Shown: positions 16,149-63,381 of the stretch, one piece after another
Numbering within the stretch: the first letter of the stretch is position 1
How the letters are laid out: each line of letters starts with the position of its first letter
Assembly: GCA_035041965.1 (NCBI GenBank)
Contig: JAPYMA010000100.1
Location: 205,909-269,908 of the forward strand
Source of the DNA: Anisakis pegreffii
Lineage: Eukaryota; Nematoda; Chromadorea; Rhabditida; Anisakidae
Direction: 5' to 3'
Length of the DNA stretch: 64,000 nucleotides
Program-made: the position numbers and the translations under genes
Notes under the pieces: model-generated
What the model was told of the DNA's origin: nothing
The model's database searches: none
Seen by the model: only the letters and a program-made list of their open reading frames with translations

Positions 16149-16284
<136 letters not shown>

Positions 16285-17749: not shown

Positions 17750-20700
17750 ATGCTTGGCAGTGCTAATCGTCATCGTCAAGTCAGCATGCTTCATCATGTG
17801 TTTTGCATGTTCGCTGTTTTTGTCACATGCAATGCAAGTGATATTTTTGGTCAAGCGACTACTCTAGCTGCTGTCACGTATGCACCATTAGTTGTCGCTG
17901 CATTTGGAACGACCACAAAGCCACCCGAAAAGACTTAGTCAGTTCCTTGTTTAGTTGTCATTTCTGTTTAGCGGTGTATCGCAGAAAGAAAATGGCGTTG
18001 TTCTGAAATATTTGCCTTGACCTATTGCTCGAACAAATTGTAAAAGTTGTCTATTAACCATCCTGAAACGCTCACTCATAAAATGCATACAGTTTCGAAT
18101 CATTAGCAAACGTTTTCGGTATCCTTCAATGTTCAGTCAGTTCACTTTTTCCGTTTTATTGCTAGTTAATTAGCAGATTCTTCTTGTAATAATCGTGAGA
18201 GCAAGTAACCATTTTCAACCCTTCTGAATAGCGTGCTGTCAGAGATTTGAAATTCATGTTTTCAGAATTATTCATCAATTACTTGTCCAAAAAAAAACTC
18301 GTCATTGAATATTTCAGCGCTGGTACATATTTGATTATTGCTCCACGTATAGTCCGGCCAAACTTGCCGTATGCCATATCGGTGAATATATTGAAAAGTT
18401 CTGAAAGTGAGCATATCGTTAGAGTTGAAATAAGGACTACACAAAATGATACAATCGGCGCACGAGTTGTGAACAATGTTAAAACAGGTTTATTTAATGT
18501 TCCAGTTATTTTTGAAATTTGTTCATAAAGAAGCATTTGCCTTTTTTGCTGAAGATGACTAACATCGATTTTTTGTCGAACAATGGGCGATTTCCAATTC
18601 CGCATTCTTTATTTCGTCACAGATCATGAATTGTTCAAGCCATCACAGTTTTGTCACGTACTGCAAATGAAGCACATTACAGTGCATAGTTAAACCAAAC
18701 TTTTTATTATCAAACTGATAGGATATCAGATGTATTAGATTTACAAGCAAGATAAAGGCTTGATGAAGATGATAAAGATATTAGATTATGATAAAGGCCT
18801 CACGTGAACTTGCTGGAGGGTGTTTTTTAAAATCACTCACTTGAACGCAGGAAAGTGTCATCTTTCAAAAACCGACAAATCCAGATTAAGTGCAGAGACA
18901 AGCTCCGTAAGGATGGCATTTGTAGCGACTATTACATTTTTAAAATTTTTGAGGAGTTCCACAAACCATAACGATCGAGGAGTTGTCTTCGGATAGTTTG
19001 CTACCAGGATCCAACTATAAAGTTTATGTTCGTGGCGAAACGATAGGATCAAAAATTTTATTTGAACAAGAAAAAGAAGTGGGATTTGATGCGAGATCAG
19101 TATCTATTTTCGTTCAAACGGATAAAGCCATCTACAAACCGTCTTCTACTGGTCACACTTTATGTTCTATGTTTTCAAGCTTGATTGACTTTCTTATTCG
19201 CTCTTAGATGAGTTATAAATATTCATTGAACAATACGGATTAACCTTGAACACGTTTTACAGAAAAACTGATCAACTGCTGATCGGAAACAATCGGTTTT
19301 AATCAACTGGAAAATGATTTGCATTCCATAAAGATTTGAAGAAATACTTTGAATTTTAAAAAATGGATAAGATACTTGAGATGAATAGTTCATGAAGTGT
19401 TTGTTTTGCTGAATGCTATAGTTATTCTAGTACGATATCGAGTGGTTGTCGTCAACCCCGACCTGAAACCTTATGCTGAAACTATATCAGTCAAAATTCG
19501 CGATCCAAATCAAAATATTATTAGTCAACGAATTGATGAATCGCTTTCGAAAGGTTTGACTGTTCAAATGTTATTCGTAAAGACTTTTTATAGATTAAAT
19601 GTAAAATTTGTTAAATACATCTGCTTTTAATATTTCTCCATTCCGCTCACGTACCATCAATGTCGTGCAGCAGAACATGATCGAAAATTTTCGGAATGTA
19701 CTCGGTTGCATTGGTAAGAGGAGTTGATCAAGTCAAAGAAGTGGAAATTAAAATTATGAGAATGCGAAATGCTGCAGGAGGTTCAGTGCTTAAAAATTGA
19801 TGGAACTGAAAGTTGAAGGAACATTGTAAAAGGGAAACAAGTAAAACTGAACAGAATATGTGATTAACTTCTAGGTATAAAAAACAGGTTGAAATCTTCC
19901 TTCAAACTGGGAGCATACTTCGAATGAAGCAATTGAACAATTGCAGGCATTCTCTCGGGTGAGCTCGAATTGGCAAATGAACCTCCTCTGGGTGATTGGC
20001 AAATTTTAGTGGAAACTAAAAGTGGAATCAACTTTGAGGATACGTTCACCGTTGAAAAATATGTTCTACCCAAATTTGAAGTGAATATTAAAACACCGAG
20101 TTTCATAACGGTTGCTGATGATCTCAGTGTCTTGGTCGAAGCAAAGTACGGTTAACTTTTCTCAGTATAGCTAATTTGCATAGTTTTATCAATGTGAACT
20201 GAACCTGTCCTTGATTGCTCACATTGAACTGCTAAGTAACGGCAATCATTAAGGTATACTTATGGGAAGGGGGTTTCTGGTAAGGCGAAAGTGACGTTGG
20301 AATTGCCGTGGCATCGGTGGCATAGCTACCACTTGAGCAGTGACGGATCGAGTGCACAGGTGCTATTTAGTTGTATCTTCATCTTTCTTCACATATCGAC
20401 TATATTTTGAATACGATTTTTTGACAATGATATGAGGAGAGTGTTGATGAATTTAGGGAGAACAAGATTCACTGATCGAGCGTACTGTGAAACTAAACAA
20501 CATGGGTGAAACAACAGTTGTGTTCTCGAACGAGGAACTGAAGAAGCATAAATTAATCACTGATTATGGTGGAAGTTTCATTCATATTGCAGCTAGTGTC
20601 ACTGAAGATCTCACTGGTATACAAAGGAATAGTTCTACGCAGGTTCATTTTAAGATGCTCATTTGGTCTATATCCAGCAATCTTTCATTGAGAGGTGCTC

Positions 20701-22781
20701 GCTAGCGGTTCACGTTATAAGTGCACATAATACGTTTTTCTATTGTTTCTAAGAATTCAAAAAATTGTTTTTACTGTTCCAATATTGGACTTCCATAAAA
20801 CCATTTTTCATTAAGAGGTGCTTGCATATTTTCTTATATTGAAAAAACGTTTCGTCGAGAGAGGATTACTGAGAAATTTGAGTGAATGATTTCAACTTTT
20901 AGGTAGTTGCATACAGACATGATGTGAAATTAGATGTTGAAAAGCAAGGTGATACATTCAAACCAGGACTTAATTATAATGTGGTTGTAACGCTCAAACA
21001 GATGGACAATACTCCAGTTAAAGCGACCGTGCCAAAGCGAGTTCAGGTAGGTGCCAGTCTATGGATTGCATTTCCTTTCTCGTTGTTGTGCTTGCCTGAA
21101 CAATTCTTGCCATATGAAACACAATTAGACCATCTTCAAGAATATGGACTCGTTTAAGGTCACAACCTACTACAATTATCCATACGTGCCAGATGCACCA
21201 ACACAACACGAGGATAAAGAAGTGAAAATTCTCGTTCTAGATGCTCACGGTACAGCTGTTTTGAATCTTCAGCCACCATTGAACTGTACTAGTGCAAGAA
21301 TCGAGGTCGTTTTTTTCGTTACTAACTATATAGATAAATTAATATTATTTATGGAATATTCTTCCAACTTTCTGCTTCTAAATTATTTCTTTCGAAGATT
21401 TCATTTTTACTGTTGTAATGAATTGAATTCAATAACGATTATTGGAATTTCAAGCTTCCTGATAACTACTATATCGTTCGATTAACTTTTATAGGCTCAT
21501 TATGATCGTTTGGGGAAAGATAATTTCACGAATGCCATGATATACTCAAGCTTGTATGTTGAAGCGAGTAAAAGTCCATCGAACAGTTTTGTGCAGCTAC
21601 TTGCTGATCACGAAGGAGTTATTGATGCTGGCAAAACACTCTCATTCACTGTGAAGGCCACCGAGTCACTATCGTTCATCACCTATATGGTATTACGTTT
21701 GCAACAACTTATCTTAATTATACTTCCATCTGAAACTTCCTTCTTATGCAGCTGATTTTGCTCATTTACGGCTACTCCTCAAATGAAACAGTTCACGTAA
21801 TTAATCTTAACCACAGGTGATGGCTAGAGGCTCAGTGGTATTATCACAAGAATTAGCCGTGAATGGTGATCTGACGACAGTCACATTTACGGCCACCCCC
21901 CAAATGGCACCAAAGGCGCGATTAGTAGTGTATGCAGTTAAGCCGACCAATCAGGAAATCTTGGTTGATGCAACTGACTTCAAAGTGGACGGACTTTTCC
22001 GTAACAATGTGCATAATTTTATCGTCATTTGATAATCTCACTTTTATTCAACTTCATAATTAATTTGCAAGTTAATTGCAAATAACAAATTCAGTTTGTG
22101 TGATGATTTGCATTTTAGGTATCTTTATCACTCGATCGTAGCACTGCAGCACCAGGTGATAGAATAAAATTAATCGCCAAGGCTGATCCAGAATCGACGG
22201 TCGCATTACTGGCTGTTGATCAAAGTGTATTGCTGCTGAAATCAGGCAACGATATTACTAGAGAACTGGTTTGTTGATCATTTATAGATTTTGAATCATT
22301 TGACTTCTCGTGAATTTACAGGTGATTGATGCAAGACAGTGATTTCAGGTTGAACAAGATATTGAACTGTACGATACGACGAATCCGTCTGGGTCATATC
22401 GACCATGGGAAGCAGCATTTTCGAGACGACGTCGGTCGATCTGGTATCCATTCTGGGGGATTGGCGGCAAAGATGCTGCCAGTATATTTGAGGTTCACAT
22501 TTGTTATCTCTTATTGAATATTGATTTTTCATTTCGAACTTGATATGTTATAAAAATGCTTTTTTATTTGCAATTTCAATGAAAATTTCGATAATGGCTC
22601 TGTCAGTATCACTTCGTGCAACTTATTCATACTCCTTCCACCAAATTTCCGGCTCTTCTGCTTCTACGGAGTTCGAGTGAAGGGCTACTAATGAAACGTT
22701 TCATTTTACTTCAATGATTTCAGAATGCTGGTCTTGTTGTGCTTACTGATGCATATCTCTATCGTGAACCTGAACCAACCA
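17750..22781 (+). other. TEP constitutive exons 1-14 (5' half)
   Basis: Exons read by hand from splice sites and frame: 17750-17877, 18318-18487, 18954-19151, 19431-19553, 19947-20145, 20254-20359, 20457-20642, 20903-21046, 21159-21305, 21495-21689, 21817-22008, 22119-22268, 22349-22492 and 22724-22781. Every junction keeps frame (for example exon 5 must end at the GTACGG donor rather than the GTTAAC site 5 bp later to give [17 protein letters not shown]). Exon 14 ends with a single base, A, so any following exon must begin with the last two bases of a codon. Introns are mostly 80-450 bp, far shorter than the introns around the alternative exons. Some acceptors (TTTTTGAG at 18,953, ATTAAG at 20,253) are weak and were chosen for frame and family similarity. 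Confidence 0.85.
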
Positions 22782-25700
22782 GTACGTTTAATCTTTTCAC
22801 GACCAACTACTTAAAATTTTCTTTTTTCTTTGCTATTGAATCCTTCCTAATTCACTGAAAATTCTAGTATTGTTCAGTGATTGAAAATTATTTTGAACAA
22901 ACTTTCAGTCAAATATACTTTTTGTTGTTTTAAACAATTCTGACGAATTGCTGAATAAAAAAAGAGAGAAGAAGGCGGGCAAAGTTGAGTCTCTAAGAGC
23001 GAAGTTTGTTCGTGTAATGTTGCATGCCTCATATAATGGTAGAATGATGCACACAATTAATGCATATTTCATACTTTACATTTCAATTTTAATACAATTT
23101 GCATGCGATTTTGTATTTATTGCTTCACACAAACATTTGCAGTTTGTCGCATTCTTATTCGAAATCACTAATAACCTTTTTATCGTGAATCTATTTTATT
23201 TGTTACTGCTAAAATCCTCACTGCTTTTTTCTCTTCATTTCCATTTCTTCTTATAATTGCGCCATAACTTTTCGTTATTCGATATTTCAATATAGTGCTG
23301 AGCACACTTACCAGATGTACATATCCAATTTGAAAACAATATTCTGGAAGGTTTCGAATTGTTTATCATCTGACTTGAACTTCTTGACTCCAAGTCCAAT
23401 CATGGACCCCGGTCGTGCCGAAGAAGAGTTAATGATTACATAAACCAACTTCAAGCTCAACTTTCGCATCATGTGACTGGTGAGATGGGACTGGGCCAAG
23501 GAATGTGAAGTTACCGCGTTCGCACAGAAATACTCTTTCATATCAACGTATAAAAAACAGAAACTGTTCCATATTTACACTGAGAATTATCATCTCCTGA
23601 TTGACCCCATTATGTGCATATTGAACGAGTTTGCACCAATCTGCAATTGAAACTCACAATTGCAGATTGGTGCAAACTTTTGATTCTGTCTGCTTATATT
23701 AAACTTTCCAAAACGATCTCTTCCAGGAAGCTTAAACTTTCTGTGCTAAACCACATGACTAATGCTTGACAGATCTATTTTCTTACATCTACACGATATC
23801 GCAAAATCACAACTCAGCACTCACAAATTGCGTTTGCAAATAAAGATTATCTACCATTTCTTCTTTTCACTTTTAGAAAAAGCGAACAAAGGCCCACCAT
23901 CGATTGTTTGTATCAATGAAATCGAAGACTTCTTTCAGTGATGTCAAACGCATTTTTCGCAGCGCATCCTGCACCACCACCTACTGGCGGTGGATTTGCC
24001 GCAGATGTTGAAACTGATAGAATTGCGCCTGAAGTCAAAAGTGACACTGCGGCCGATGTGACGAAAGTTCGGAAGAATTTTCCTGAGTCTTGGATATGGA
24101 TCGAACTCTCTTCAAAAAAGTGAGGGCCACTTCTTTGACCATAAAATTGGCTGCATTCTCATTCAGTTCCCGAAAGCTAATATTTTTGCGCGTTCTAGAG
24201 CATTCATCAGATGATTTCAGTATTTCGTTGTCAAGTTTCTCACGTTAGTACACATTTTTCAACTCATTTCAAGTTCACGTTATTTGCACTATTATCCACT
24301 TCTCCTTTGCATGAAGCTGTTTTATCCATCATATCCGATCGATAAGGGCATCAGTCAGCACTGAATCGATGTCATCATTCGAAGTTTCCATTTGTTCAAT
24401 AGATAGTATCGAAAGTATTCTTTTCTAACAGGTTCCAACTTAGAAAAAGTTCAGAGGGTGTAAGCTCTTACCTTGTACCTTTTCATCAGTTACGGTCAGT
24501 TTACGCTTACTGAGATTACTATTTGGACGTAACTGTCTCAATGACTTGATGCATGTCTCAATGTTATATTTGTCCTGATTCTTTTAATGGTGTCATTGGA
24601 TTTTTCATATTAGTTTCTTCTTAACAGCTAAGAGTTGTCATAACTGATGCGGAGACTTGTTTTATTGGCTACGTGAACGAAGATGGTGCATGTTAGGGTG
24701 ATGAAATTAAGTGATAATATTATGGACAATCAAAACTACCGCATATTTCAGTGGCATTCAAAAAAATCTCATCGGCCTTTCCATTCTTCTCCTGAGCATG
24801 AATGCAAGTCATTTTTGTAAAAGTTCCTGGCAGTTCTTGCTTTAGCATTCTCCACATTCAGCTTTGAATTCTGATTGTGGGTAAAGTATATATTTGGCGA
24901 TTCGAGTTCAATTTTGAGGTACTGAATGTACATAATAAGCGAAGGTATTAGTTTTGTTGAACCTGAGAGGTGAACAGTGGCTTGTTTTTTAATGTGGTAA
25001 ACTTGAGCTGATATGAAGAGCAGCCAACCAGTGCTGATCTGTAGTTGGATCTCATTTCAAAACAGAAATCGTTCGGTTTCGGTTAGATGTCACTATCAAT
25101 CTTGAGAAGTAAAACGTGGCAATGAGCTGAGCGTAAACAAGATTCAGTTAAGGTCCTAGGCGATGTATGGATAAGTTTCAGCCAAGATGAGTTCAAATAT
25201 AATGCAATCTCAATTAATGAGACTGTGGAAGGCTCAACTTCTGGGAATGGTCGTTTATTATTCTCCTTCGCGCTTTTGGGACGAGCGATCTGATCGCAAC
25301 TATGAGCTCAGCCCGCCTTCATTTCTCTTATTGTATATGACATTTGGTGTCTGAAAATTGAGAATGCTCCCAATAGTTGTTCTTGTTAAAGCACTGAAAA
25401 TCGTTCACAGTAGAAATTGCACAGCAAACGCTGCCAGTGCAGCAAGAAAAGCCATCTGAACAGTTAATCGTTCAGTGATGATTCTTGATGAGGAGCTCCT
25501 TGATGCAGCAGCGATGCCAAATGAAGCGCACATATCAACTGGTTATGCCGCCCCAGCTAGTTCAGGCGCTTTCACTGTTCCGGAAACGAAAGTTCGTCGT
25601 TTATTTCCAGAAGTGTGGATATGGCATCAAGCGGAAGAAACTGAGTGAGTCGTATAATGTATATTCGCTGGACCTCCTCCTTTCTTGTGATGGAGTCTGA

Positions 25701-28700
25701 TCACTCTCATTTAGATTTTGAATCTGCTTTAATGAAATCGTTTATGTATCTTTCTTTCTGCCAACCCTTCAATTGTTGAATCTTATCACAAAAGTCAGTT
25801 GGAGCAAGAGAGTATCATTTCTTCCACTCATCTGTATTTCACACAACTCTTTTCTGAACTTATTTTGATACAGCTGCATAAGAACGAGAATAAGGAATTG
25901 TCCTGAATAATAAAATTGAGACTTTACGTATATTGGGTTTCCGAGAATGAATCCGACGAAGTATTATGTAGTCATCTGTCTATTACCTTCCAGTTGAGCT
26001 CCGTACTGTTCATAGTTTCGTTTTTTTCACTCTATTAAAAATGTCGAGTGGTCATTTCACTTTCTTCTTCTACTGTCATGCACAGATCAGCATTTGCGTG
26101 CATGCATTCATTTACTGGAGCTGGAAGGTTGTTCAAGCTGTTCAAGAAATTATCAGTTATCGATAAATGTAGTTAGTTGTTTTAATCTGTTACCACTCAT
26201 GTAATGCAGATCAATCTGTGAAGTTGCCTAGCCTCAATTTTTACCTCCTTATATAGACCCTGACTTATATTTTAAGATCATCTCCACTCGAACTAGCGCT
26301 TATTGACATATGTTGCTTTGTTCAACAGTTTTTCTCAATCCTCAATTCTGAGCTATGTTGAAGGAAATTTTTTTCAATGTTTAGTAAGATATTTGCATAT
26401 CGAACAAAATTACTCATATACGAACGTTTATGGTGGAACTCGAATGCATTACCTTTCGATTTTGGTATTCGCCAAGTTATTCCATGTGCCTTCCAAGTCA
26501 TCTTGTGTTGCTTCAGATCACCATGTTGCATTGAAAGTTTACTTGTAGGTGCGTGAACGTTTCAAATTTAGGTAATTTTCATGGCTTTTCGCTTTAACAA
26601 CATTCAAGTATTTCGTTACGTTTTAGCATGTGATAATGCGATAAGACGACAAATTTCTGTCTATATTCAACCTTCTTTTTTTGCATATTCAGTATATCAG
26701 CCTCATCAGGGAATACCATCCTCATACTGAGTTGATGAAGTGTTTTGTAGTCAAATTTTCGGATTGACAGCGTCTTCCTTGATTATCTTCAGAAGTAGGA
26801 AATGAAACTAAAAAATAACTTGACATGTTCGTCTGACCAGCGCTTATTCACGTTTTTCATTCACCAGTTTATATGATGAATAACGGCGCGGACATTCGAA
26901 AAGGGCACTGCAAAGCCCTCCATTGCTTCATTAAAACCACAAGTAGCGCTTGGTGGCGTACAAGAAACTTACCGTATTTCCAGAAACGTGCATTCGCAGC
27001 GATTTACACGCACTCATGTGAGTTCGCTGAATGTCAATGAGCTTCAAATTTTTATCTGATGTTGTTGTATGTGGAAAAAAGCAGTCGTATTATTATCAGC
27101 AATGCCAGGTATAATCCGAGTGATGGTAGCGTTTACAAAGTCACGAAATTCCTGAATTGGGATCAAATCTTGGGATCGTTTTACAATCCCACGATTGAAA
27201 GACAACCATAAACGAAGACAAAGCAACGGTGATGATAAAAGGTGAAGTAAGAGTGATGGCATTACGAAATTTTTGTTAACTCTTTTCTGAAAATCGAAAG
27301 CCGTGGTAATAATACTGTTTTGTAGTGATGTACCATTCATTGCTGCTTGGAGGATAAACAATATAAAATTACTGAACTGGGAACGACTGACGTGTAGTTT
27401 AAGATGAGCATATTATCGGCATTCATAAAATTCCATGTTTTATCAAATTTCAAAATATCGCATTTATGTCTTCCAGAAGATCAACCACCGACAAGTAAGT
27501 TCGGCCTCGGGCCGAATTTTTTTTAAGCAGCTGACTGACAATCAGAAATTCAGTGACATTGTCGTTTTTGTATTTACCAAAAAAGGAATTATTCACCAAA
27601 CTGGAGGAATCCGATAACTGGGCTATTACTTGCCCATAGTTTGGTATGTTGGCGCCCACAGTCATCTATTAGGAAATACTCTACGATAGTGGTTCTCACG
27701 TTTGGGTGCTCCATTACCCATTTTGATGATCTGGCAGGCCGCCGTTACCTTTCTTCCCTCATGATACAAGAACTTACTATTTCTACGTATAACGTTAGGA
27801 ACAAACGTTAGATCCTTTTATGGCGTGAAAGAAATTAATTTTCTGGAATGAAACAAGTATTTTTAGAACTTTATTTTTCCATTGCAGAGACAATATGAAC
27901 CTCGGCAATCAGAAACGAAAAGCAATGAAAAAAATCTCTTCGGCGATAAAAATTGAAAGTTAACAACAGTTTCAATTATTCATGAAGAAGGAAGATGCAA
28001 TAAACAGTTGAGAAATTCTCTTCCAGATGAACGGAAAAGTAATCGTTCCATCAACGTAATGGTTAATAATTAAGTGAAAATTCATCGGATGGATGAAAGT
28101 AAATCCGAACTATCGAGGGTTTTGGGATGCGGCAGGTGCATTGAGTCTGAAACCAATGATCTTTTCTATCGTACCAAACGGCCCAATCAGTTCTTACTGC
28201 TCATGAGAGACGATTCAGCCAATATATTAATTGTAAGGAACTTACAAAATAATTGTGACTACTTCAGACTGATTTTTATTCAGGCTTGGGTGAGCTGGAG
28301 ATACTCAGAAAATAGGATGAAGACGAGTGTTTTCATGAGCGAGCCGCGTTTAGGTATCCGAGTGGAAAATACGCCATCACAATGGCGTTTCATCATAACA
28401 AAACAACACCAAATATTGGTTTCTCTCAGTCAATCCCCAGTGTTGATGAGAAACGATGTCAGCCCATGATGTATTGAAGAACTTACGAAACATTTGTGAC
28501 TAAACAGACTTTTAATTAGGCCGGGACGAGATAATGATAGTCAGAAAATAGGAGAAAGAACAGTGTTGCCATGAACTAACCGCATTTACATACCCAAGTG
28601 AAAAAACACCACAGTGGCGTTTTATCATAATATAACTAACAACTGCACGAAATATTAATTTCCTTACTCCACCCCATTCCTCCACCCGACATCCCGAAAT

Positions 28701-31700
28701 TATCCGAAATGGATATTCCTCCCTACCGCTGCTGTACGAAGACATAACGAATTTTGGGCAAATAATGTCGTGAAAAATTTCAGTGTAGCAGCTAAATAAT
28801 TTAAAACCTATTTTCTTTTTTTTACCCTTTTAACATTAGATTCTTAGTTTCATCTGGCGGGCCAGATATTATTGAGGACGGGTCAATTTTGGGCTCCGGG
28901 CCGGGGTTGCCGCAGGTAGATAGTGGAAGATGGCCGCTCGGTGTATTTTTTCTCTATTAATTGATTCATAAACAGTTTGTTGTGTATTACTTGATTGAAT
29001 ACCAAGCCGGATAACGTCTGCGTTTGAATGTTGACACTCATCAGCAACTGCTAGTGAAACACGACGCATACGAGTTGTTATTGTTTCTTATTGGATTTTA
29101 GATGTTTGAATGTGTTTTTTGTTGCAAATCATTCTTCTTGTGCGCATCTTTTTGCTTTTTAACTGTGCTCATTACACTCCCTACTCTATCAACTAACTAA
29201 TTCTTGCCTCTGCACAACCTTAAAAAAACTAGCGAGCAGGTGAGGAGAGGATGAATGCGTACTCATAAGGCAACAACCACAAGCAGATAATTCGTATCAG
29301 TTGTTCGTGTGTCGTGTTCCTTGCTTGTGAAGTGCTTTGGATAGATATCCCTAACATAGCGAGCTGAACTGATCAGAAAACTGCATGACACTGAATTGGC
29401 TAAGAATGATTTTACTTTATTATTTAGATTGTTTGTTCGATTGAGACAAACTTCATCCATTATTTGTGAAATTTTTTCCTTTGTGGGCAGTATTGCTGGT
29501 GTGCAGATCATTCAGTTTTGACATCTTTTGAAAATTTTAAATAATTTTGACTGATGAAAACAATAAAATTTATCGTAAACGCATAAAATATGATGGGAGT
29601 GAAGAGCAATCTTTGTGAAGGGAATACATTTGTTTGGCAAAGTGAAAAGTTAAGTGTTTTTGCGATCAGGATATTATCATATAGCGAGATTTCAACAATC
29701 GAATGGTTTACCAGCTCCAGATGTAATGTTGGGACAATTTGCATCCAAAGCGTTGCCACTAAGAATGCCAACAGCACCTGTTGCACCGAAGGTTCGAAGC
29801 AAATTCCCAGAGACATGGATTTGGGGCAATTTCATCGCAAAGTAGGGCATTTTCAAATGCATTTCACTATTTCTTTTTTAGTATTTGAGTTTGGCAACTG
29901 TTGGAAAATGGTAAGATTCAATTCACAAGTTCAGTTTCTTCTAACTAGATTATTGTTGTGAACCGTTTTAGAATATTTAGGAGATGGACTATCATTCAAA
30001 TGAAGTCATTTGTTATGGAATCAAATACTCGTTTAAAAATATGTCCTTCTATGGTCTCAAAAAATATTCTCAATTATGCCACTGAAGTGACCAATAAGAA
30101 AGATATTAATTGAAAGTCACCTGATACCGTTATGCGCTGGAAGGGAATTCCAAATGAGTTCTTTATAAGAAAAAATATGGAAAGTTTTATGCGAATGTAT
30201 CTGTCAAAAAACTATCACTGATTTGATCAGTTATTTTTTTAAAAATTCATTCTGAATGCACCTTTTGATGTAGTTGTTTGTGAGTGGAAATGTATTGTTG
30301 CTATCGTTGTGGTGACCGTCATTGTCTAGCTGCTAGAGCACTCCGCTTCATAAACGCAAAACAATGAGAAGTGTATTCGTGAGCAAAACTTTTTTCGCCA
30401 GCAAGTTTAACCAAGAAAAATCATTTATCTTTGATTAACGTTAAGTAGTGAGAATGATTTTGTTTTTATGTGCTGAGCTGATCGTATTCAACATTGATTG
30501 CTTAGGTGTATCCAGCATCGTAATTTTTATTCGAACTTTAAACCAATGCAGATTCCGTTCGGATAAATAATATGAGGTTCAATATTCCGGGATGATACGC
30601 AGTATTTTTTATCAGTTTATTTTTTTCCGTAAATTCGTTTCATCAAATTAGGTTGAATTTCCCTCTTGAGCCTTCACTTGATCAATTCATCATCCGAATT
30701 GTTAGCACTTTCTGTTTTCACGAGCAAGAAGCCTTCTTCAGCTAAAAAAAATTCATTATCGATGCTGTTTCAGTCTTTTTGTCGAGCCTTATTTGTCGTT
30801 TGACAAACATCGAGTTTCACAGTTATCTCACAATAACACAGCAATGATCCAATCATCGTTTATATATTTTCACTAGTAATTTTCGATTATTCGTTAACCG
30901 AACGGAACAATAAATACTTTTTTTTTGCCATTCGAACATCGCCAGAAGTCTCAAATCTCTTTGCTATGAGTTCATCGCCATAACTTAATCCATTTCGCAG
31001 ATAGGCCATATATTTTCACGCTGAGATAAAAATCTTCTATGTTACTTCTTGGCTTATTGAAAGGAATAACTCGCTTGCTTTAATGGAATCTAATAAAAAG
31101 TGATTATCCAATGAATTCGTCATCTGTATTATTATAATTGAATGGCTAGACTGAGCAATGGCTTATATGATAATTGCAGCAACGTGTTTGTACAAATTTA
31201 GACGAACGCTGAAGGCAGAACTTTCAGTTGACAGTCGTGCGGTAATGGTATTTGATCGGTTTTTTATGAAAGAACCACTTGGCGATACAGTATTGACGGA
31301 TGCAACTCGTCAATTTGAACTAAATTATTTTAATGTGATGAGAACAAGGAAAGATTTTCCAGAGTGTTGGTTGATGAGCACAATTGATAATGAATCCACT
31401 CATCAGCTATCTGATGATCAGCGGTGAGCACAACTTAAACAATCTCGTCGTTGTGATGTGGTTGTGAAATGTGCATCTTGACTTTCATTCATTTCTGCTC
31501 AGAATTACTAATCTTTGCCTTTTGCTCATTTCACTATTGCATTTTTGTAGCCGTTCATACTCCTAAGTTAGATATACTTTAAGTTAAGCATCTTCTGAGA
31601 GCATTACTTGATCTGTAAACTTGATAGTCAACTAACTTTTGACAGTCGTCCCTCTGAATTATTAGGTACCCGGTCAGTCTGCCTAAAGATGTTTTGCCTA

Positions 31701-34700
31701 ACGACATTTCATCTAAAGACACTTTGCCTAGGAGACATTTTACCTAACAGACATTTGCTTAATGGGAATTTTGCCTAACGGCATTTCGCTTAATGCGCGT
31801 GCGAGATTGTTAGACCCACCCGTTCAGAACACCTTGGGGATGTTCATCTCGTAGTCTATTATTAGAACACTTATACATGTGAACATAAGTGATTTTGATG
31901 GCTTCAATCAAAGTCAGGTTTTGACCGATGAAGTTACGAAGAGCAAACAACGCGTTTAGTTCATCTTTATCACCGACGATGGACAGCTCGCTTCAGCAGT
32001 CTCCTTTAAGGAACTATGTTTGGATTCAAAACAATACATTTCCCGTAGAAATAAGAATGTTAGTTATTATTAATTATGCACGTCAGAATACATGAAATTA
32101 AATAAAATGCTGATGATAGCAACGTTTATAGTAGCAATAACAATAACAACGTATGTTAACTAATAAATGCGTGTATAATTGGTGAATAGAAGTGAGTAGT
32201 GTTCGTCGGGGAACGGGGTCCCCGTCGGGGACCCCGGCGGGGAACGCGGGGAGCGCTCCCCCCGCGCAATTTGCTCCCCGACTTTTTGCGGGGACCCCCC
32301 CCGTCCAATTTACTCCCCGCGGGACCCCCCCCGCGCAATTTGCTCCCCGACTTTTTCGCGGGGAGCTCCCCGTCCAATTTCGCTCCCCGACGGGAAGGAC
32401 GGGGAGTGCGAACCTTCCCGAATATCGCGAACATTTAACTGAAAATGGTGAAAGACAGCTGCAACACTTTCAATATTGTCTTGTTTTTTGTTTTGAAATG
32501 TGAGTATAAGGTGCACTTGAAAGAAAACTACTTAAAAAAAGGAGAAAAATCTTTAAAAAATTGAAATTTTGTTTAAAAAATTGAGCTGAAATGCTCCCCG
32601 TCCTCCCCGTCGGGGAGGAACACGGGGAGCGGTCATTCCCCGACGGGGTCCCCCCCGCGCAATTTGCTCCCCGACTTTTTCGCGGGGACCCCCCCGTCCA
32701 ACTTACTCCCCGCGGGGACCCCCCCGTCCAACTTACTCCCCGCGGGGACCCCCCCGTGCAAAAAATTGCTCCCCGACGAACACTAGAAGTGAGCAATAAT
32801 TTTTGTTAACTCTTGTTGCTATCCTTATTATCATTATTGTTGTTACAACCTTTATTATTGCTATTGTTATTGTTATTAGTTATCATACGTTGTTACTGTT
32901 ATTGCTACCATGAATGTTGTTATCGTCAGCAGTAATAATAACTAACATTCTTATTTCTACGGGAAATGTATTGTTTTGAATCCAAACATAGTTCCTTAAA
33001 GGAGACTGCTGAAGCGAGCTGTCCATCGTCGGTGATAAAGATGAACTAAACGCGTTGTTTGCTCTTCGTAACTTCATCGGTCAAAACCTGACTTTGATTG
33101 AAGCCATCAAAATCACTTATGTTCACATGTATAAGTGTTCTAATAATAGACTACGAGATGAACATCCCCAAGGTGTTCTGAACGGGTGGGTCTAACAATC
33201 TCGCACACGCACTAGGCAAAATGCCCTTAGGTAAAACTTCTTTACGCGTATTGACCGGTCACAGAATTAATAGCTGCTTTGAAGTGCTTAGGTATTTGAT
33301 TGTGCTGGAGAAGCGAGTATTTGTTGCGTGCGTTCTGGCTGATTTTGTCCTTCAACTGATTTGATTTTCATTTCAAAAGATTCACAGATACGGAGTAATG
33401 CAAGATAGAAACAGTGTGAGTATTAATCAGTAATGTGAATTTCATTGCACTTCTGAATATTGATAATCTGTGGGCATTGCAAGCAGTGGGTAGAAAAATT
33501 TTGCTTGTAGAAAATGAACTAATAAATCTCTGCTGAAACTCAGTTCTCCTCATTTGTGAGCGGTGATCAAAATTTAATAACGTACGCCTAAGTGGTAATC
33601 TCGGTTCAAACTTCGTCTTCAGAATTTAATCAGAATTTCTAAGAATTCAACTTCACTCCAAATGTTCACCATTTATTTATTGATCATCTCCGTTTATGAA
33701 ATTCTTAAGTGTTGTTATTTCTTGTAAGCTGGCATACGTTCGTTTGACGACAGTACTTGACCCACAAAAATTTCATATAATATGGATTCGTTCTTTACTC
33801 TCCGCTCATTTTTCCTATTTTCGTTGTTCATTGACTAAATATCAGATAACTATATATTGAAGCGCTTAGGTATTATGATTGCAAAAAAGGATTTGTTTCT
33901 CCTGACGATAAATATCTTATGATAAATAGTCCATGGAACGTTGAGGTGCAGCAACTTTATTGCTTTTAACATAGCTGGTTGCAAGAGCCTTTATGGATGT
34001 TATGCTCAAAAGAAATGTGATAGAATCAGCGATATTCTCAAATGAAATTTTCATTTTGATGTTTACTGAATATGAACGAAAAAAGTCGAAAAATTTTTAT
34101 CAGAGAAACATATGATGGTGGTATTTTCGTCAAATTATTGCAAGCGATTTCTTAAGCCTTAGATGTGATAGTTGTCAATATCAGTAACATTGAATTATTT
34201 CAATGGGCCTACTTCTATCATTTCTGATCGCTTTTATTGGTGCTTTTTCAGTGAAACTGGTGAAGCAGTTTATGAGGCGACTGTTCCGGACACGATCACC
34301 TCTTGGGTGGCAAGTGCTTTTGCTATCAACGATGAAACCGGTCTCGGAGTTGCACCTTCAACTTCAAAGGTCATCGATTTGTTTAAGATAGTGTTTACAT
34401 ATAGGAATGCTTAAGCATATATGATTTTCACATCCGACCTCATACGATAATAAGTTAACGTTCATTTGCCGAACCGTCCTCTTCTAATCGAACAAAAATG
34501 AATTCCGTTGAATTTATCTTAATGAACATGAAAAAACCAAATCAATTTTGTATCGATTGGGATCGAAATAATTCTTGCTGTCGTTACCTTCAAGAGTGCT
34601 TCTGCATTCAACTGGACTGTGTAGAACGCATAAAACGCATGTTTGGTCGTATCAGAAATTTTCAACGGTATTTATTTAGATTATAAAATCTTTCATATCA

Positions 34701-37700
34701 ATGATTTGTGCGAATTTATGATCGAATGTCAGGCATTATTATGAAGGGACTGTTCAATTCTTTTTTCTTCAGTTGACTGTATTCCGTCCGTTTTTCATTC
34801 GACTAAACATACCGTATTCCGTGAAACGAGGCGAGAAGTTTGCGCTACAAGTACTCATATTCAATTATATGGATACTGAGCAGGACGTAGGTCGCTTTCT
34901 TCTCTAATATAATACGACCTTTTCTATCCCAAAGTTATCATTGAAATAACATTTCCCGGGGTCATTTTGCCTCTGTTTTTTTTGTTTCGTGGAGTACTTC
35001 AAGTGAGATTGTTTACCAAAAACTTTGCTGTCTCATTTCTAAGGAAGGTCGAAAAAAACGAATTTATTTTTGTTGATCATTTACATCACTGCTTAGAAGA
35101 GAGTCAAAGAAGGTGATATTTAAAGGTCACTGTTACGTTGAAACACGATGATGGCGCTGGCTTTGATTTCTTGCAGAAAGATGGTACCTCTAAGAAACCA
35201 CTAAGGTGAGCCAAATGTTTTAAAATGGAATTGTGATAATCATATGAATTCGTTAATCGTTTCAAACCGAAGTGTCGTAGTCGATTAATCAAAAATGGCA
35301 AGTATTGACTAAGTTTTCGTTGACTAAATTATTTAAGATGAAACAGTAATGAGAATGTAAATTGTTGCAGTAAAGATTCAAAATCAAAGAACTACAACAT
35401 GCGCTTAATATCGGTCCCAGGAGGAGGTGTTTCAAAGGCTGTTTATTTCCCAATCGTGCCTACGCAAATTGGTGAGGTAAAATTGTCTGTTGTTGCGCAA
35501 TCTGCAAAGGCTGGTGATGCGGTTGAGCAACGTCTTAAAGTGGAAGTATGCCTTACTTATTTCATTTATGTTAATTGTTTGCAGTTATTGACTGTCTCAT
35601 TGACCTGATACCATGATTATTATTTATTCGTTGATGATTCATCAAGTCTAGAATTAGTATCTTGTTCAGCCTGAAGGGTATCGCGTTGATCGAAATATAC
35701 CGATGATTATTGATCTGTCTGAGAAAACGGCATTCAGCAAGGAAGTTGATTTACAATATCCACATGATGCAGTTGAGGGCTCGAAAAGAGCTCGAGTTGA
35801 TATAATCGGTCAGTTTGGTTTCATTGACGGTTCTCATGTAAAACTACCTCAATCAAAATTTTTTGACTGTCTCTCTTGATTCTGACATCTTTTCATCTGC
35901 TGAAACTTCATTAAGACCAGCAGATGTGCGTTTTTTAACACGATGGTTTCATTATTGTTCCATCCACATTTTCAAAGATGCATAAATTCTGCAAATCTTC
36001 AGGTGATATTATGGGCCCGATATTGGCCAATATTGATGCCTTAGTACAAATGCCTTATGGTTGTGGGGAACAGAACATGATCAATTTTGTGCCGAATATT
36101 GTTGTTCTAAGATACTTAAAGGCAACAAAACGAGCTGGTGCACAGATAGAAGCGAAAGCTCTCAAGTATATGGAATCAGGTTATCAGAGAGAGCTTACTT
36201 ATAGGTGCGTTTTTTGTGATTTTCATCTATTTTTCAAGTTCAGGAAGTGGTGCATTTCAAAATCTCTGGGTTATTATCACATGGTGTGTGCCTAAAGTGT
36301 GCTGTTTCATGCCATAAATAAAGTGATGAGTACCAAAACCTATAGTCTTACCCTTCAGTTATACGAATGATTGCATATCTTACAATTAGGATGCATTCAA
36401 ATGCGACTTGATTAATAGCTTTCATATCGAGGTGTTTCAAAATATTTGAAATGGTGTTTTTAGAAGGGATGATAATTCTTTTTCCGCATTTGGTCAACAA
36501 GATAAACATGGTTCAACCTGGTTGACAGCATTCGTCGTACGCTCTTTCAAACAAGCACAATCATTTATCTTTGTTGATGACCAAATTCTACAGAAAACAT
36601 TCGCTTTTCTCAATGCTCAACAGGAACAAGTAATCTAATATGATCGTTACATCATTTTGTCGTACTCTACTGCCTCCTGTTTCTTTAAAAGGATGTTCAT
36701 GGAATGCGTATTTGCTTATAAACTCAAGTGTTGAGTAATTAAAGAGGTCGTGAATGAATAATGTGCTGATGTATTATCCCAGGAGAATGGTGCGTTTGCC
36801 GAGCGAGGTGAGGTGCATCATAAAGATATGCAAGGTGGTGCTGCTGAGGGTGGTGTGCCTCTAACTGCCTACGTTTTTATTGCATTCCTTGAGAATGGCG
36901 TATGTCGTCAATGTTATCTCATTTCTTCTTTTTCCGAACCACTCCCTTAAATCTCACATGACTTAAATTTTTATAGCACTGGAGACAAGGCCGATCTCTC
37001 AGGCCCGGTTTTATATATTTAACCATGTACTCCTAATAAGCTGATTTTTAATGAAATTTCAACACATTTTGATGCCTGTTAATGTTATGAAGAAAAAAAT
37101 TTTTTTTTCAGCCTGAGAGATCCGGTTTGTTTCCGATGCTATGAAATGTTTTAAGTTGTGCGCATGGTCCGGGAAAAGAACTTTTTCCTTTTCTTCTTAG
37201 TTGAGACCAGGAAAATAACGCAAGTCATGGAATCTCAGATCTGTGACTGCAATATCCATCAACCTGTGACAAACTGAATGTTGGAGCCGGATCTCCCATA
37301 TCTGTTCGTTGTGCGAGGATCAATCTCCTTTTTACGCAAATCGAATCAAGATTGGCTAACGCCATAGAGCCTTGCCGTAGCTCGCCGCTTAGCTGAGAAA
37401 GAAATTGTTCATCGATGAAAATTAACTCCATGAAGTTGTGCATCTAATTTGCTGAGCTGTACTTCGAGAGTGGCTTGTAGTACACGCTGAGAAGTGTTAA
37501 TTGGTGCAGAGGAAGAAACATGAATATTTACAGGTTAAAAACGATAAAGCGCAACACTATTTGGAGCAGCATTTGAACGAAATAAAAGACGATGTTTACG
37601 CTCTGGCTGTAGTCACATACGCCCTGCATTTGGCCAAGAGCACAAAGAAAAGCGAAGCTCTCAAAATGCTTGAAGCACATAAAATTGAAGACACCGGTGA

Positions 37701-40103
37701 GTGAGTAATCGTTTTTCTCTGCTAGTTTGATGTCAGCATTTTGGTCGTTTGCAATTTGTGTGATATGTACGGACATTTTTCCAGATGGAAGTGCACATTG
37801 GACAGCAAAAGCCGGAGGTGAAAAAGCTAAAGACACTCAACAATACTTCTATCAGCCTCGTCCAGTTGACGTTGAAATTAGTTCATACGCATTGCTCACT
37901 TATATGCTTAACGATGATAAGGAAAAGGGCCTACCAATCGTAAGGTGGTTAAGCTCACAACGGAACGCACTCGGAGGTTTCAGCAGTACTCAGGTAAAAT
38001 CCTTCCTTTACTCACTCATTTTAAAAATTCCACCTTAATCATCGATTCTGGAATAGTGGGTATGATGTGATTGTCTCAGTTCTCATGGTACTGATCTTTT
38101 GATTGCATATCGACTCATTTTCATGTCATCTATTCAACAAATTTAAATTGCTATTTATTCAAGCACTTTTCACGGCAATGTTATAAATTCTAATGAAACA
38201 GGATACGGTGATGGCATTGCAAGCATTGGGCGCATACGCTGAGAAAGCTTATTCGCCAACATTCAACGTTTCGATTATTGTAAAGAGTGGTGCAGACAAT
38301 GAACAATTTGAAGTGACACCTGAAAATGCAATTGTTCTACAGTCTTATGAAGTGCGTTCTTAATTCATTTTCTCTCAGTTTTGTATTGATTGTCATTTGA
38401 CTTGATCGTTGCGTAACTGCTCCAATTAGTTTGCTTGTGGACGTCGCAAATATATTTTCATATTTTCAACACTTTTCAACCAATATGTTGGGGTGAAAAA
38501 GGGAAACTTAAAGATATGCTTCGAGTTCAGATTTCCAGTCTCGATGAGCCACTTCAAATCGAAGCCAAAGGCAATGGTGTAATTTTTGCGCAAGCACAAT
38601 ACTCATACTATCGTGTGGCAACCAAAGACGATATGCCTTTCTATTGTACTAAAGATGTACGCGAAGTTCACGGCGGTAACCGACTGCAACTTGACTTATG
38701 TTGCAAGTACGTTTTTCATTTGTCTGGAGGTGGTTTTGTTAAAAATGAACTCGGGATTTTCAGAGATAGGAGCTGAAGGCTTTTGTGAACACGTAGAATT
38801 TTAAATTTGAATTTTTTTTTCAAGTACTGTTCACAAGAAAAATTGGTAGTTGTATAGTTCAGAGGAGGTAGGCACGCACTGTAATGCGCACGTAGTACAT
38901 CGCATTGACAGATAATGTGCCAGAAAGGAGTTATTCCTCGAAACGTTCTCAGAGCTCACTAGACCCTTTCTAAACGAAAAATCAAATCATCATGAGTGAG
39001 TGAATCACAGCAGAGAGGTGCAATTCATAATAAGAAGCATGCATTCCCATTGCAGCTATACTAAACCTGGACAGCGCTCGAACATGGCCGTGGCTGAAGT
39101 GAGTGCGTTAACTGGTTACCGATTCGATGGTGACGAAATCGGACGGCTAACTGATATTGCTGATTTGCAAAGAGCCGAACTCGACAAGGAGGACACAAAA
39201 ATGAATTTGTATTTTAATCCGGTAGAAGATTTTTCCCATCCTTCGATCGTCATTATTCTTTTGATGTAAAATAATACGCAAGTTGGCTTTTAAAAGATCT
39301 GTTGAAAGCCACAAAAGAATGGATGAGGTATGGCTCGGAAAATTCGACTAATGTTTTGAGATGAGTGCAAGATAAAGGAATAGATCTTAGACTGTTTCAT
39401 ATTTGCAGCTCGGATCTACACCGGTATGCTTATCATTGTTCAGTGATATGGTTTATCAAGTGGCTGATCAAAAGCCTGCTCAAATGGTTCTTTTCGATTA
39501 CTATGATCCAGAACAACAGGTGATTCCGTCACTGAATTGGTCCATTAGCTGATGACAGTTTCAATCTGTCACCAATCATTCACAGCTTCGCTTCACTCCT
39601 CAAAAAATATGTGGGTAGCGCAAAAAAGTGGTGAAAAATTAGCAAGAAATACCGCAAATAATAATGTTTTGCTGATGACAGTTTTAATCTGTTCATCCTG
39701 TTCATTCTGAGAGAAACAGTTTTCGAGTTATTTTATGGCCAGTCGATTCAGTTAATGCCTCGTGAAATTGTGAAACGGTTCGTACAATCGAAATGAAGAA
39801 TGTGAAGATTCGGCGATTTCCTGTCGGAGGTCTTAAGCAGCAATGCAGTTGTAGTGGAGTTATTTGAAGAAGAAATAAAAACAATTTAAGGTGAAATCAT
39901 CCTATTCGGCTAAACAAGTACGATCACTGCAAGACGCATGTCCTGATTGCTGGCCATCGGTGGAAATAAATGACGAGGGCTCAGGTATGACTGCAACTCG
40001 AGCTGATGCATCAAATGCTGCGACGATAACCACCACATCAGGTGTGCTTCGCCTTGGCGTCTTATCACTACTAATCCATTTCTTAACTCTTACCGTTGTG
40101 TAA
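17750..40103 (+). CDS. tep-1: Thioester-containing protein (alpha-2-macroglobulin / CD109 / C3 family) with alternative bait exons, about 1,558 aa
   Basis: Family role: an extracellular protein whose bait region is cut by proteases, exposing an internal thioester that bonds covalently to the attacker or to surfaces (opsonin or protease trap). Seen in order: a signal peptide ([17 protein letters not shown] within exon 1); macroglobulin domains with [10 protein letters not shown] and [13 protein letters not shown]; a tetrabasic SRRRRSIW site; one of four alternative bait exons ending in FPEx[10 protein letters not shown]; the thioester GCGEQ at 36,059-36,073; HHKDMQGG, which aligns with the catalytic-His segment of C3; a receptor-binding-like domain; and a hydrophobic C-terminus typical of GPI attachment. 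The length fits CD109/TEP proteins. The start is the first ATG in frame (17,750); ATG 17,786 is an alternative that gives a tighter signal peptide. The junction between exons 26 and 27 is the only uncertain one. Family assignment is near certain; orthology to C. elegans tep-1 is inferred. Confidence 0.93.
22424..22435 (+). other. Tetrabasic (furin-type) cleavage site in TEP exon 13
   Basis: Four consecutive arginine codons in the context SRRRRSIW, just before the bait region. Complement C3 is cut into its two chains at a tetrabasic run in a comparable region. Cleavage here is inferred. If it occurs, the mature protein would be two chains, with the alternative bait segment near the start of the second. 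Confidence 0.6.
23629..23677. repeat. Perfect 21-bp stem, 7-nt loop hairpin in TEP intron 14
   Basis: Arms 23,629-23,649 and 23,657-23,677 are exact reverse complements around the loop AAACTCA. It lies between constitutive exon 14 and bait exon A and would be transcribed in the pre-mRNA. It could be a splicing-control structure, a small-RNA precursor or a tiny inverted-repeat element. Nothing in the sequence decides between these. Confidence 0.9.
23939..24119 (+). other. TEP alternative bait exon A (181 bp)
   Basis: Acceptor TTTCAG ends at 23,938; donor GTGAGG begins at 24,120. It starts with the two bases TG, completing the A left by exon 14 (Met), and ends with AA, completed by the T of exon 16 (Asn). 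The peptide is Pro/Gly-rich ([11 protein letters not shown]), then acidic, and ends [19 protein letters not shown]. The FPESWIW block is the conserved end of the bait region in this family. The phase pattern (two bases in, two bases out) is identical to exons B, C and D. Confidence 0.88.
25476..25644 (+). other. TEP alternative bait exon B (169 bp)
   Basis: Acceptor CGTTCAG ends at 25,475; donor GTGAGT begins at 25,645. The peptide begins [16 protein letters not shown], continues through an Ala/Ser-rich stretch ([11 protein letters not shown]) and ends [20 protein letters not shown], followed by Asp at the junction with exon 16. It shares KVR..FPE.WIW with exons A and C but almost nothing else, as expected for alternative bait segments. 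It uses the same intron phases as the other copies. Confidence 0.88.
26885..27017 (+). pseudogene. Probable decayed fifth TEP bait exon
   Basis: Between exons B and C a short stretch translates as [17 protein letters not shown], then after a one-base frame break as [13 protein letters not shown], followed by a GTGAGT donor that leaves two bases, exactly the phase used by the working copies. The DNA around FPET closely matches exon B (ATTTCCAGAA...GTG.AT). A stop lies upstream in the first frame with no acceptor after it, so the copy looks non-functional. The match is short, so chance cannot be excluded. Confidence 0.4.
27687..28745. repeat. Cluster of hAT-MITE-derived fragments in the TEP bait-exon region
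   Basis: 27,687 begins TAGTGGTTCTCACG and continues with sequence homologous to the element at 43.4 kb. 28,260-28,470 and 28,500-28,745 are two diverged tandem copies of a unit containing CATACCCAAGTG / CGAGTGGAAAA, then a CGTTT.ATCATAA block and AAATATT.ATTTC. The second is homologous to the reverse of the element at 50.1 kb. Individual borders are eroded. Confidence 0.6.
28845..28925. repeat. hAT-like terminal fragment
   Basis: GGCGGGCCAGATATTATTGA then GGGCTCCGGGCCGGGGTTGCC resembles the GC-rich ends typical of Charlie-type hAT elements. Only this end was found. Confidence 0.45.
29670..29841 (+). other. TEP alternative bait exon C (172 bp)
   Basis: Acceptor GCGATCAG ends at 29,669; donor GTAGGG begins at 29,842. 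The peptide starts [19 protein letters not shown] and ends [26 protein letters not shown] is the best match to the family consensus among the four. The acceptor lacks a long pyrimidine run and the donor is GTAGGG, so this copy may be spliced less efficiently. Phases are identical to the other copies. Confidence 0.85.
31180..31423 (+). other. TEP alternative bait exon D (244 bp, divergent)
   Basis: Acceptor AATTGCAG ends at 31,179; donor GTGAGC begins at 31,424. The longest copy, with 80 full codons. The peptide contains [17 protein letters not shown] and ends [19 protein letters not shown] followed by an acidic tail. The conserved FPExW is kept, but WIW is replaced by CWL, adding an unpaired Cys, and the segment after it is longer than in A-C. 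Phases match the other copies exactly. It may be an older duplicate or a functionally distinct bait. Confidence 0.82.
31666..33263. mobile_element. Long fold-back (Mutator-like?) element, 1.6 kb, in TEP intron 15
   Basis: The ends GTACCCGGTCAG and (reversed) GTGACCGGTCAA are inverted. Inside are long arms, about 31,790-32,060 and 32,930-33,210, that are near-perfect reverse complements. The left end adds degenerate copies of TTTGCCTAACGRCATTT. Flanking GAATTATTAG (31,656-31,665) and GAATTAATAG (33,264-33,273) form a 10-bp near-identical duplication. Long inverted arms with a 9-10-bp duplication suggest a Mutator-like fold-back element. No transposase is present. It sits between bait exon D and exon 16 and carries another element inside it. 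Confidence 0.75.
32197..32785. mobile_element. GC-rich non-autonomous hAT-like element, 589 bp, nested
   Basis: The ends TAGTGTTCGTCGGGG and its reverse complement CCCCGACGAACACTA are perfect, and the element is flanked by an exact 8-bp duplication GAAGTGAG (32,189-32,196 and 32,786-32,793). An 8-bp duplication with these end bases fits the hAT superfamily. The interior is made of many CTCCCCG/CGGGGAG blocks around an AT-rich centre (32,430-32,590) and is strikingly GC-rich compared with its surroundings. The open frames in it are low-complexity artefacts. Confidence 0.85.
36059..36073 (+). other. Intact thioester motif GCGEQ in TEP exon 21
   Basis: Codons for Gly-Cys-Gly-Glu-Gln in the context [16 protein letters not shown]. 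The Cys and Gln side chains form the internal thioester in C3, C4, A2M, CD109 and most TEPs. The downstream HHKDMQGG segment in exon 23 (36,783-36,899) aligns with the C3 segment that carries the catalytic His. This suggests C3/CD109-like reactivity toward hydroxyl groups. Confidence 0.92.
36970..37130. repeat. Inverted repeat in TEP intron 23
   Basis: GATCTCTCAGGC at about 36,993 is repeated in reverse as GCCTGAGAGATC at about 37,112. The intron (36,900-37,509) is otherwise unremarkable and holds no further exon. Confidence 0.5.
40044..40100 (+). other. Predicted GPI-anchor signal at the TEP C-terminus
   Basis: The protein ends with a Thr/Ala/Ser-rich spacer ([10 protein letters not shown]) followed by 19 hydrophobic residues ([19 protein letters not shown]) and no cytoplasmic tail. 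This is the usual layout of a GPI attachment signal, as in CD109. A secreted form or a true transmembrane anchor are the alternatives. Confidence 0.6.
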
Positions 40104-42457: not shown

Positions 42458-43365
42458 CGGTTACGTAATGAAAGAGAATAGACGTTTTCGCTCACACTTT
42501 TGTATTTACTAATCTTTAAAAACGGCTTGGTAATGAGCTCGAAGGACAGTTGAATTAGCTTGCATGACAGTGTCTCCAAATTCAAAACTTAACGATCGTT
42601 ACTTTCATCTCCCTCGAAAACTGAATAACGGTTATTGGCACGCAACTGAATTTATTATTACAACCTTTATAGCTTTTTTGGTAATTGTTCAAGCGGTAAC
42701 ATTTTTAACGTGTTGCGCATACTTTTTGTAAGTGATACATACTGCGCATATTTATCCAAGAATGAATGCACGAATTTCGTGATATTGATTGGTTTTCAGA
42801 TGAGAAGAAACAGTAGAGATGAATGATGTAATGAGCCAAAGTGAAGGATCGATCGTGTTCCATTTCTGTTTTTTGAGATATTGTGATTGATAATAAATAT
42901 TATAAATTTGATGTTTATTGCGGTATGAACTGCTGCTGTTCAAAAATGAATTTACTGCTCTATTAAATTACTAAAAATATGTTGTTTTGTAGCATTTTCA
43001 AGCAAATACGATTCCATCGACATGTTTCATCATGGCCAAAAGCAAACCTCATCGCTACACAATGGGCATATCTTAGTTTTGCAAATAAAAATATAAACTA
43101 CAAAGCTCAATAATCTGTTCATTTCGCAAAACAATAAACTGATCACTCAGAATGCAAGATGTATAGTTGTTATGTTTAGAGTCACGTTATATCTCACTCA
43201 AAGCGTGATTCTTCATTGCAGTGATCGTTCTTCCAATGAATTTACCACGAATTTGCAGAATACGTGGACCGTATAAGGGAGATACTCAAAGAACATCTTA
43301 GACAGATTTGATGAGCAACGCAAATGAAATATTCGTGTGCTGATTAAAGGAATGTTCCTCTGCAA

Positions 43366-57598: not shown

Positions 57599-57662
<64 letters not shown>

Positions 57663-62680: not shown

Positions 62681-63381
<701 letters not shown>

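Follow-up and report, generated by a model that had tools for sequence, protein, structure and literature searches.

How many alternative exons can one mRNA hold when several lie side by side in a single gene? This question is raised by a 64,000-nt stretch of the genome of the nematode Anisakis pegreffii (GenBank assembly GCA_035041965.1, contig JAPYMA010000100.1, positions 205,909 to 269,908 of the forward strand), referred to here as the window, with all coordinates given as positions in it. The window contains a gene of the CD109 and thioester-containing protein (TEP) type in which four in-frame exons, termed cassettes A to D, are placed at one position, that of the protease-sensitive bait region. 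Very probably, splicing inserts exactly one of them into each mRNA. Four proteins would result, identical outside the segment that runs from residue 731 to the start of ETGEAVYEATVPDTITSW. A preliminary description of this DNA had proposed mutually exclusive bait exons, and that reading was supported by the logic of the reading frame, by an orthologue of D in Toxocara, by a C-like cassette in Panagrolaimus, by a pair of Steinernema proteins and by the exon borders of an abalone gene.

The cassettes were located on the + strand at 23,939–24,119 (A, 181 nt), 25,476–25,644 (B, 169 nt), 29,670–29,841 (C, 172 nt) and 31,180–31,423 (D, 244 nt). Each is flanked by AG and GT, begins with two codon bases and ends with two. 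Exon 14 (22,724–22,781, +) ends in A, which supplies one codon base, and exon 16 begins at 34,252 with T. These coordinates, lengths, phases and flanking bases agreed to the base with those proposed before the gene was modelled. All 16 possible subsets of the cassettes were tested, and four remained open to the natural stop, each consisting of a single cassette, in line with the earlier statement that only one cassette keeps the frame. The other 12 subsets (zero, two, three or four cassettes) led to a premature stop, including A+B+C+D together, even though their summed length is 1 mod 3, a combination not raised in the preliminary description. The locus is therefore a row of tandem exons of which every full-length frame holds one, as expected of a mutually exclusive cluster.

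The gene spans 17,786–40,103 and comprises 29 constant exons plus one cassette in a model that was built by hand from the sequence and checked by script. Products of 1,572 (A), 1,568 (B), 1,569 (C) and 1,593 (D) amino acids were predicted, each with a single stop, at the end. The 14 constant upstream exons (17,786–22,781, +) cover the half that precedes the bait, beginning with a signal-peptide-like sequence, and match the Pfam domains MG2, MG3 and A2M_BRD, while the 15 constant downstream exons (34,252–40,103, +) encode the A2M, TED and receptor-binding domains and a hydrophobic C-terminal tail that, judged by eye, resembles a glycosylphosphatidylinositol (GPI) signal. In isoform A the Pfam domains were found in the order MG2, MG3, A2M_BRD, A2M, TED_complement and A2M_recep, and the GCGEQ thioester motif (36,059–36,073, +; PYGCGEQN in the model) is intact. 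This ordered set of MG, bait-region, A2M, TED and receptor-binding domains, together with the motif, places the product in the A2M/TEP superfamily and bears out its earlier identification as a thioester protein.

The closest full-length protein was from Parascaris univalens (82 % identity), followed by proteins of Brugia, Acanthocheilonema and Loa (69–70 % identity), a ranking in keeping with an ascaridoid nematode. Among solved structures, the best relatives were the CD109 structures 8s3o and 9fx2, with 702 bits for human CD109 (8s3o) compared to 504 for A2M and 436 for mosquito TEP1. By these bit scores the gene would be classed as a CD109-type TEP, with A2M and complement more distant. Human CD109 aligned over residues 54–1522 and has a hydrophobic C-terminal tail in common with the nematode protein, whose tail was recognized by eye. 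CD109 is GPI-anchored. A furin-like RRRR is encoded in exon 13, upstream of the bait (22,424–22,435, +), and an R-X-K/R-R motif was present at most 75 residues upstream of the bait in 33 of 34 parsed top matches (of 38). Processing of the protein into two chains is predicted from this site.

All four cassettes close on a related segment. The preliminary description gave it as KVR..FPE.W, a form that was recovered in A, B and C and not in D, which reads RTRKDFPECW. The pattern FPE.W occurs four times in the 11.47-kb cluster, once per cassette, and once in the rest of the window, both strands being covered; in 200 first-order random sequences of the cluster its mean number was 0.025. This shared end aligns with VRKHFPETWIW of CD109 and lies directly before PDTITSW in 109 of 113 parsed homologues (eight of the 121 homologous proteins were dropped as unparsable at PDTITSW). 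Judging from these alignments, it represents a stretch conserved in the family that directly follows the bait and that we take to be part of MG6 in solved TEPs. Because the shared end is this post-bait stretch, each cassette would consist of a bait and the stretch that follows it, with only the first part free to vary. The variable parts showed no likeness to one another in six pairwise shuffle tests (z at most 1.1), as had been noted for the cassettes outside their shared end. A common origin of the cassettes by duplication agrees with the shared end and the phases, while the variable parts are unlike.

Coding potential and the possible presence of further cassettes were assessed across the cluster. 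With a codon model trained on the constant exons of the same gene, the claimed frame scored best of six in all four cassettes (B 0.463, A 0.393, C 0.302, D 0.047), the lead being narrow for A, with 0.315 on the opposite strand. The 1,394 windows in the cluster introns had a mean score of −0.361 and a best score of 0.499. A scan for open phase-1/2 exons of 120–300 nt, with thresholds set by the worst cassette splice site and a site model derived from 28 constant donors and 28 constant acceptors, returned 12 candidates in six places. Four places were the cassettes, with shorter nested versions, and the two extra places (24,712–24,832 and 26,364–26,544) were without the shared end. A six-frame scan that allowed looser ends (F followed by P/V/T/A and E/K/D/H) detected five further places, the only FPE among them being FPETC at 26,977; splice sites at these places were checked only through the phase-1/2 exon scan. 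Searches by tblastn with 31 bait segments (of 38) gave no match outside the four cassettes at E<0.1, among the matches listed. A cassette without the shared-end motif could escape the cassette scans.

Comparison of the cluster with related nematodes, which had been proposed as a check, yielded an orthologue of D in Toxocara and C-like segments in Panagrolaimus and Parascaris. The search with D gave nine candidates sharing short words, one of which scored at E 10 or less. This was P0121 of Toxocara canis, with an E value of 5e-17 and 60 % identity over 89 %, which fell outside a set of 196 comparisons through a length filter and was shuffle-tested separately (z 32, 0 of 5,000 shuffles as good). 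Identity to Toxocara in the core of D reaches 35 of 42 residues, almost as high as in the constant region that follows the cassette (667 of 756). No match to D was among the best 22 of the 196 comparisons, which therefore do not establish D as a type found throughout nematodes. Cassette C resembled the third cassette of Panagrolaimus P0037 (0 of 5,000 shuffles as good) and was the best match of the Parascaris bait (tblastn E 1.7e-10, shared end included). Since matches were picked from 196 comparisons, the D and C–Panagrolaimus matches stand, those given below for A and for the variable part of Parascaris–C are borderline, and those for B carry no weight.

Some other nematode proteins were suggestive of arrays of similar design. 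Two Steinernema entries with one gene number (P0023 and P0031) have 727 identical residues before and 306 after middles that differ, and also diverge near the C-terminus. At least two shared-end motifs were found in seven of 38 top matches (P0029 by the looser motif only), and a Wuchereria model joins two baits that are found singly in Brugia and Acanthocheilonema models. Both are the expected behaviour of gene finders on a mutually exclusive array. Three further matches, on contigs of 5,155, 4,892 and 5,259 nt, are proteins of 1,619, 1,601 and 1,599 amino acids with one bait each; at these sizes there is almost no room for introns. The filarial bait P0003 showed no likeness to the first cassettes of Strongyloides and Rhabditophanes (z 1.0 and −1.0). 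Caenorhabditis elegans TEP-1 (P0024) is homologous (55 % identity over 96 % of the query), and its listed entry has one bait, ending FPHTW, although entries represent clusters and other isoforms may be hidden.

The gene models with more than one cassette at the same point also speak against misassembly, by which exons of separate loci would have been brought together here. In favour of misassembly, the long cluster introns contain repeats, including a fold-back element. However, the window is without any N, and searches of the whole genome (a 122.7-Mb assembly of 1,740 contigs) with a piece of isoform A and with the DNA of D matched this gene only, B and C not having been searched alone. Misassembly is considered extremely unlikely. 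The fold-back element (31,769–33,236) lies in the intron between D and exon 16 and has 304-nt arms, 98 % complementary, and a CCCCG-rich core; it is likely to be a recent insertion. A dispersed repeat is present both in the cluster (27,679–27,961) and downstream of the gene (43,358–43,656), the copies being 69 % identical over 300 nt.

We infer from genomic sequence that each cassette is used in mRNA, and a number of observations weigh against the reading proposed here. The likeness of A to the second cassette of Panagrolaimus P0037 is borderline (2 of 5,000 shuffles as good), as is that of the Parascaris bait to C when only the variable part is compared (7 of 5,000). Matches to B (11 and 7 of 5,000) may be due to chance and are not evidence, and no B orthologue was found among 18 candidates at E 10 in a region search. 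In tblastn, A resembled filarial baits, a resemblance that is largely lost without the shared end (Loa z 2.4, 9 of 300 shuffles), with Brugia then falling outside the best 22 of the 196 comparisons. Six parsed Caenorhabditis entries have one bait each, although isoforms differing only in the bait would be hidden because the database is clustered at 90 % identity. The acceptors of B and C are weak, being matched by 103 and 145 of 578 decoy AGs, and the donors of A to C are matched by 119–146 of 633 decoy GTs. The codon score of D is poor. Finally, the frame of D is open upstream to an in-frame ATG just before the exon (AMAYMIIAATCLYKFRR...), and Toxocara P0121, an 893-residue model, starts shortly before D and is without the upstream domains.

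Some of these points would fit a gene in which only one or two cassettes are used and the rest are decaying duplicates, as weak B and C acceptors and an absent B orthologue might suggest. However, all four cassettes are open, with intact GT–AG sites and the conserved end, B has the best codon score of all, and D has an orthologue and C has relatives. Decay is therefore regarded as very improbable, and selection of one cassette from a working set of four remains the preferred reading.

Cassette D differs from the others in composition. The residues A, P, G, M and S make up 19 % of its variable part, compared to 45–50 % in A, B and C, and this part has eight basic residues and one cysteine. The description of all four cassettes as baits needs correcting for D, whose composition is unlike that of a bait and whose sequence is strongly conserved. 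We think, on sequence grounds, that D is a fourth alternative with a conserved role. The upstream ATG and the start of the only relative found, Toxocara P0121, near D could instead mean that D opens a shorter version of the gene, made from a separate promoter and lacking the upstream half, and the conservation of D and its paucity of A, P, G, M and S are compatible with this. Yet of the four acceptors that of D is the strongest, being matched by 1 of 578 decoys, and the phases of D are those of A to C; moreover, the Toxocara model may be no more than one part of a gene that was split in prediction. Use of D as a first exon is thus improbable, and D is treated here as an internal alternative to A, B and C.

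How a single cassette might be chosen was examined through the splice sites and the potential for RNA pairing. Donors of A to C scored 3.4–3.7, below the constant-exon median of 6.5, whereas A has a strong acceptor and D has strong sites at both ends. These strengths fit regulated exons, and equally they fit weak exons. Incompatibility of minor-class (U12) and major-class sites was not suggested as a cause of exclusion, all sites being ordinary GT–AG, and steric exclusion by a short intron was rejected because the five introns are too long (1.2–4.0 kb).

A candidate splicing-control element in intron 14 (22,962–22,991, +) is complementary to a stretch about 150 nt before cassette B (25,302–25,331, +), with a pairing energy of −36.0 kcal/mol. 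A 24-nt piece of this pairing reached −34.1, and none of 120 shuffles was as strong. Such a pairing is what would be seen if exclusion depended not on frame and decay alone but on a common RNA docking site that pairs with selectors next to the individual cassettes, the arrangement of insect Dscam; by summed energy, two of four layouts lay above 12 of 12 shuffles, one of them because of B. However, with docking after exon 14, A, C and D were without comparable pairing (77, 25 and 27 of 120 shuffles as strong), and with docking before exon 16 the summed energy was reached by 6 of 120 shuffles, four layouts having been tried. The two further layouts were within the range of their shuffles, of which there were 12 only. 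In the two layouts assessed with 120 shuffles, the docking-site model gained no support for A, C or D, and a shared docking site is held to be unlikely, though less so than the misassembly, decay or first-exon alternatives.

Exon borders were then compared between nematodes and molluscs. From the T of TDA, the constant sequence of the four predicted isoforms extends 12 residues, and it resumes 11 residues before PDTITSW. The same two distances fit 26 entries of one abalone gene, from two species, with 20 distinct middles, some of which are near-alleles and one a joined model. The entries counted were those with TDALVYKYVKP or TDVLVYQYVKP, and P0066, P0070 and P0072, which have a different pre-bait start, were left out. 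At either end of the abalone middles the outermost residue is variable (Y/F/L/S and S/G/C), as is one position of the fixed part (T/I). Five scallop isoforms fit the borders too, but have four further start residues in common.

A second TEP-like gene in the same A. pegreffii genome (contig C904, L004:6182-5972) has one bait exon of 211 nt, with AG before and GT after, and with two codon bases first and two last (phases 1 and 2). The next exon starts with one base and has 11 residues to PDSVTQW. The exon upstream of this bait exon was not found, so its incoming phase rests on the open frame. No TED match was obtained for this gene in a family search in which only the best candidates were scored. 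Its bait exon has two cysteines early on. Taken with the border match, the phases of this exon suggest that the exon borders are old and that the length of 1 mod 3 was inherited; once an asymmetric exon of this kind is duplicated, the frame itself polices the number of cassettes. It is possible, but doubtful enough to be offered tentatively, that an ancestral asymmetric bait exon (phase 1 in, phase 2 out) has kept static borders since before the nematode–mollusc split, that such arrays are an inherited protostome device for bait diversity which enforces one cassette per mRNA by itself, and that D, once a bait, has become a conserved segment with a separate function.

The following course of events is proposed. 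The ancestral bait exon would already have lain between a phase-1 and a phase-2 intron, as it apparently does in the second TEP gene, and was likely duplicated in tandem, every copy being 1 mod 3 long. The frame would then forbid zero, two, three or, through stops, four cassettes, and faulty mRNAs would be removed by nonsense-mediated decay. In an earlier step of choice, the weak splice sites of A to C, and perhaps RNA pairing, may select the cassette. Isoforms A to C would present baits of different protease sensitivity, whose cleavage would expose the thioester and allow binding to a target, while the D isoform would carry a conserved segment, probably one that does not act as a free bait.

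Elsewhere in the window, the + strand at 45,119–45,187 reads CAICGDHATGKHYGAISCDGCKG, which by eye resembles a nuclear receptor zinc finger, in a downstream gene. Long TA microsatellites are present at 16,152–16,277, 57,603–57,658 and 62,906–63,171.

Bait exons of this class are known from fly and mollusc genes. In passages of the published accounts, Drosophila TepII (Tep2) is described as having a cluster of five mutually exclusive exons (PMC6071210) and as giving five isoforms through splicing of exon 5 (PMC7016707), and to that extent the bait segment of a single TEP gene is likewise encoded there by alternative exons. The nematode protein differs from fly TepII in being nearer to CD109 among solved structures and in ending in a hydrophobic tail, so the comparison with Tep2 made in the preliminary description is upheld for the class of mutually exclusive bait exons, and not for Tep2 in particular as the closest relative, the closest solved structure being CD109. 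Passages of PMC7016707 also describe six mutually exclusive exons in scallop CfTEP, variants of BgCD109 in the snail Biomphalaria glabrata, and 12 mutually exclusive exons over 30 kb in its BgTEP2, each with a conserved C-terminal end. As described there, BgTEP2 has the same layout as the nematode cluster, a variable start with a fixed end, and differs in belonging to a mollusc, in having 12 exons compared to four, and in that transcripts were shown in the snail whereas the nematode cluster is known from genomic sequence. Scallop CfTEP and abalone CD109-like isoforms, compared as proteins, differ in the middle and have their borders at the same residues.

We know of no cassette array in vertebrate CD109. 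A full-text literature search for bait splicing in nematodes found no report in the titles, beginnings of abstracts and some passages that it returned. While the class of bait exons is known (fly TepII, scallop CfTEP, snail BgTEP2), what is new to us is the cluster in a nematode, the agreement of borders between phyla, and a cassette such as D, unusually conserved and not bait-like.

To our knowledge, diversification of complement-like proteins is not usually attributed to nematodes. If the reading presented here is true, a bait array enforced by the reading frame would constitute such a diversified complement-like protein in nematodes, both parasitic and free-living. Because nematode and abalone isoforms agree in their borders, the age of the array can be tested on public genomes, and the second TEP gene offers a single-exon state for comparison. 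Cassette D poses the further question of what role the bait position may have once it is no longer variable.

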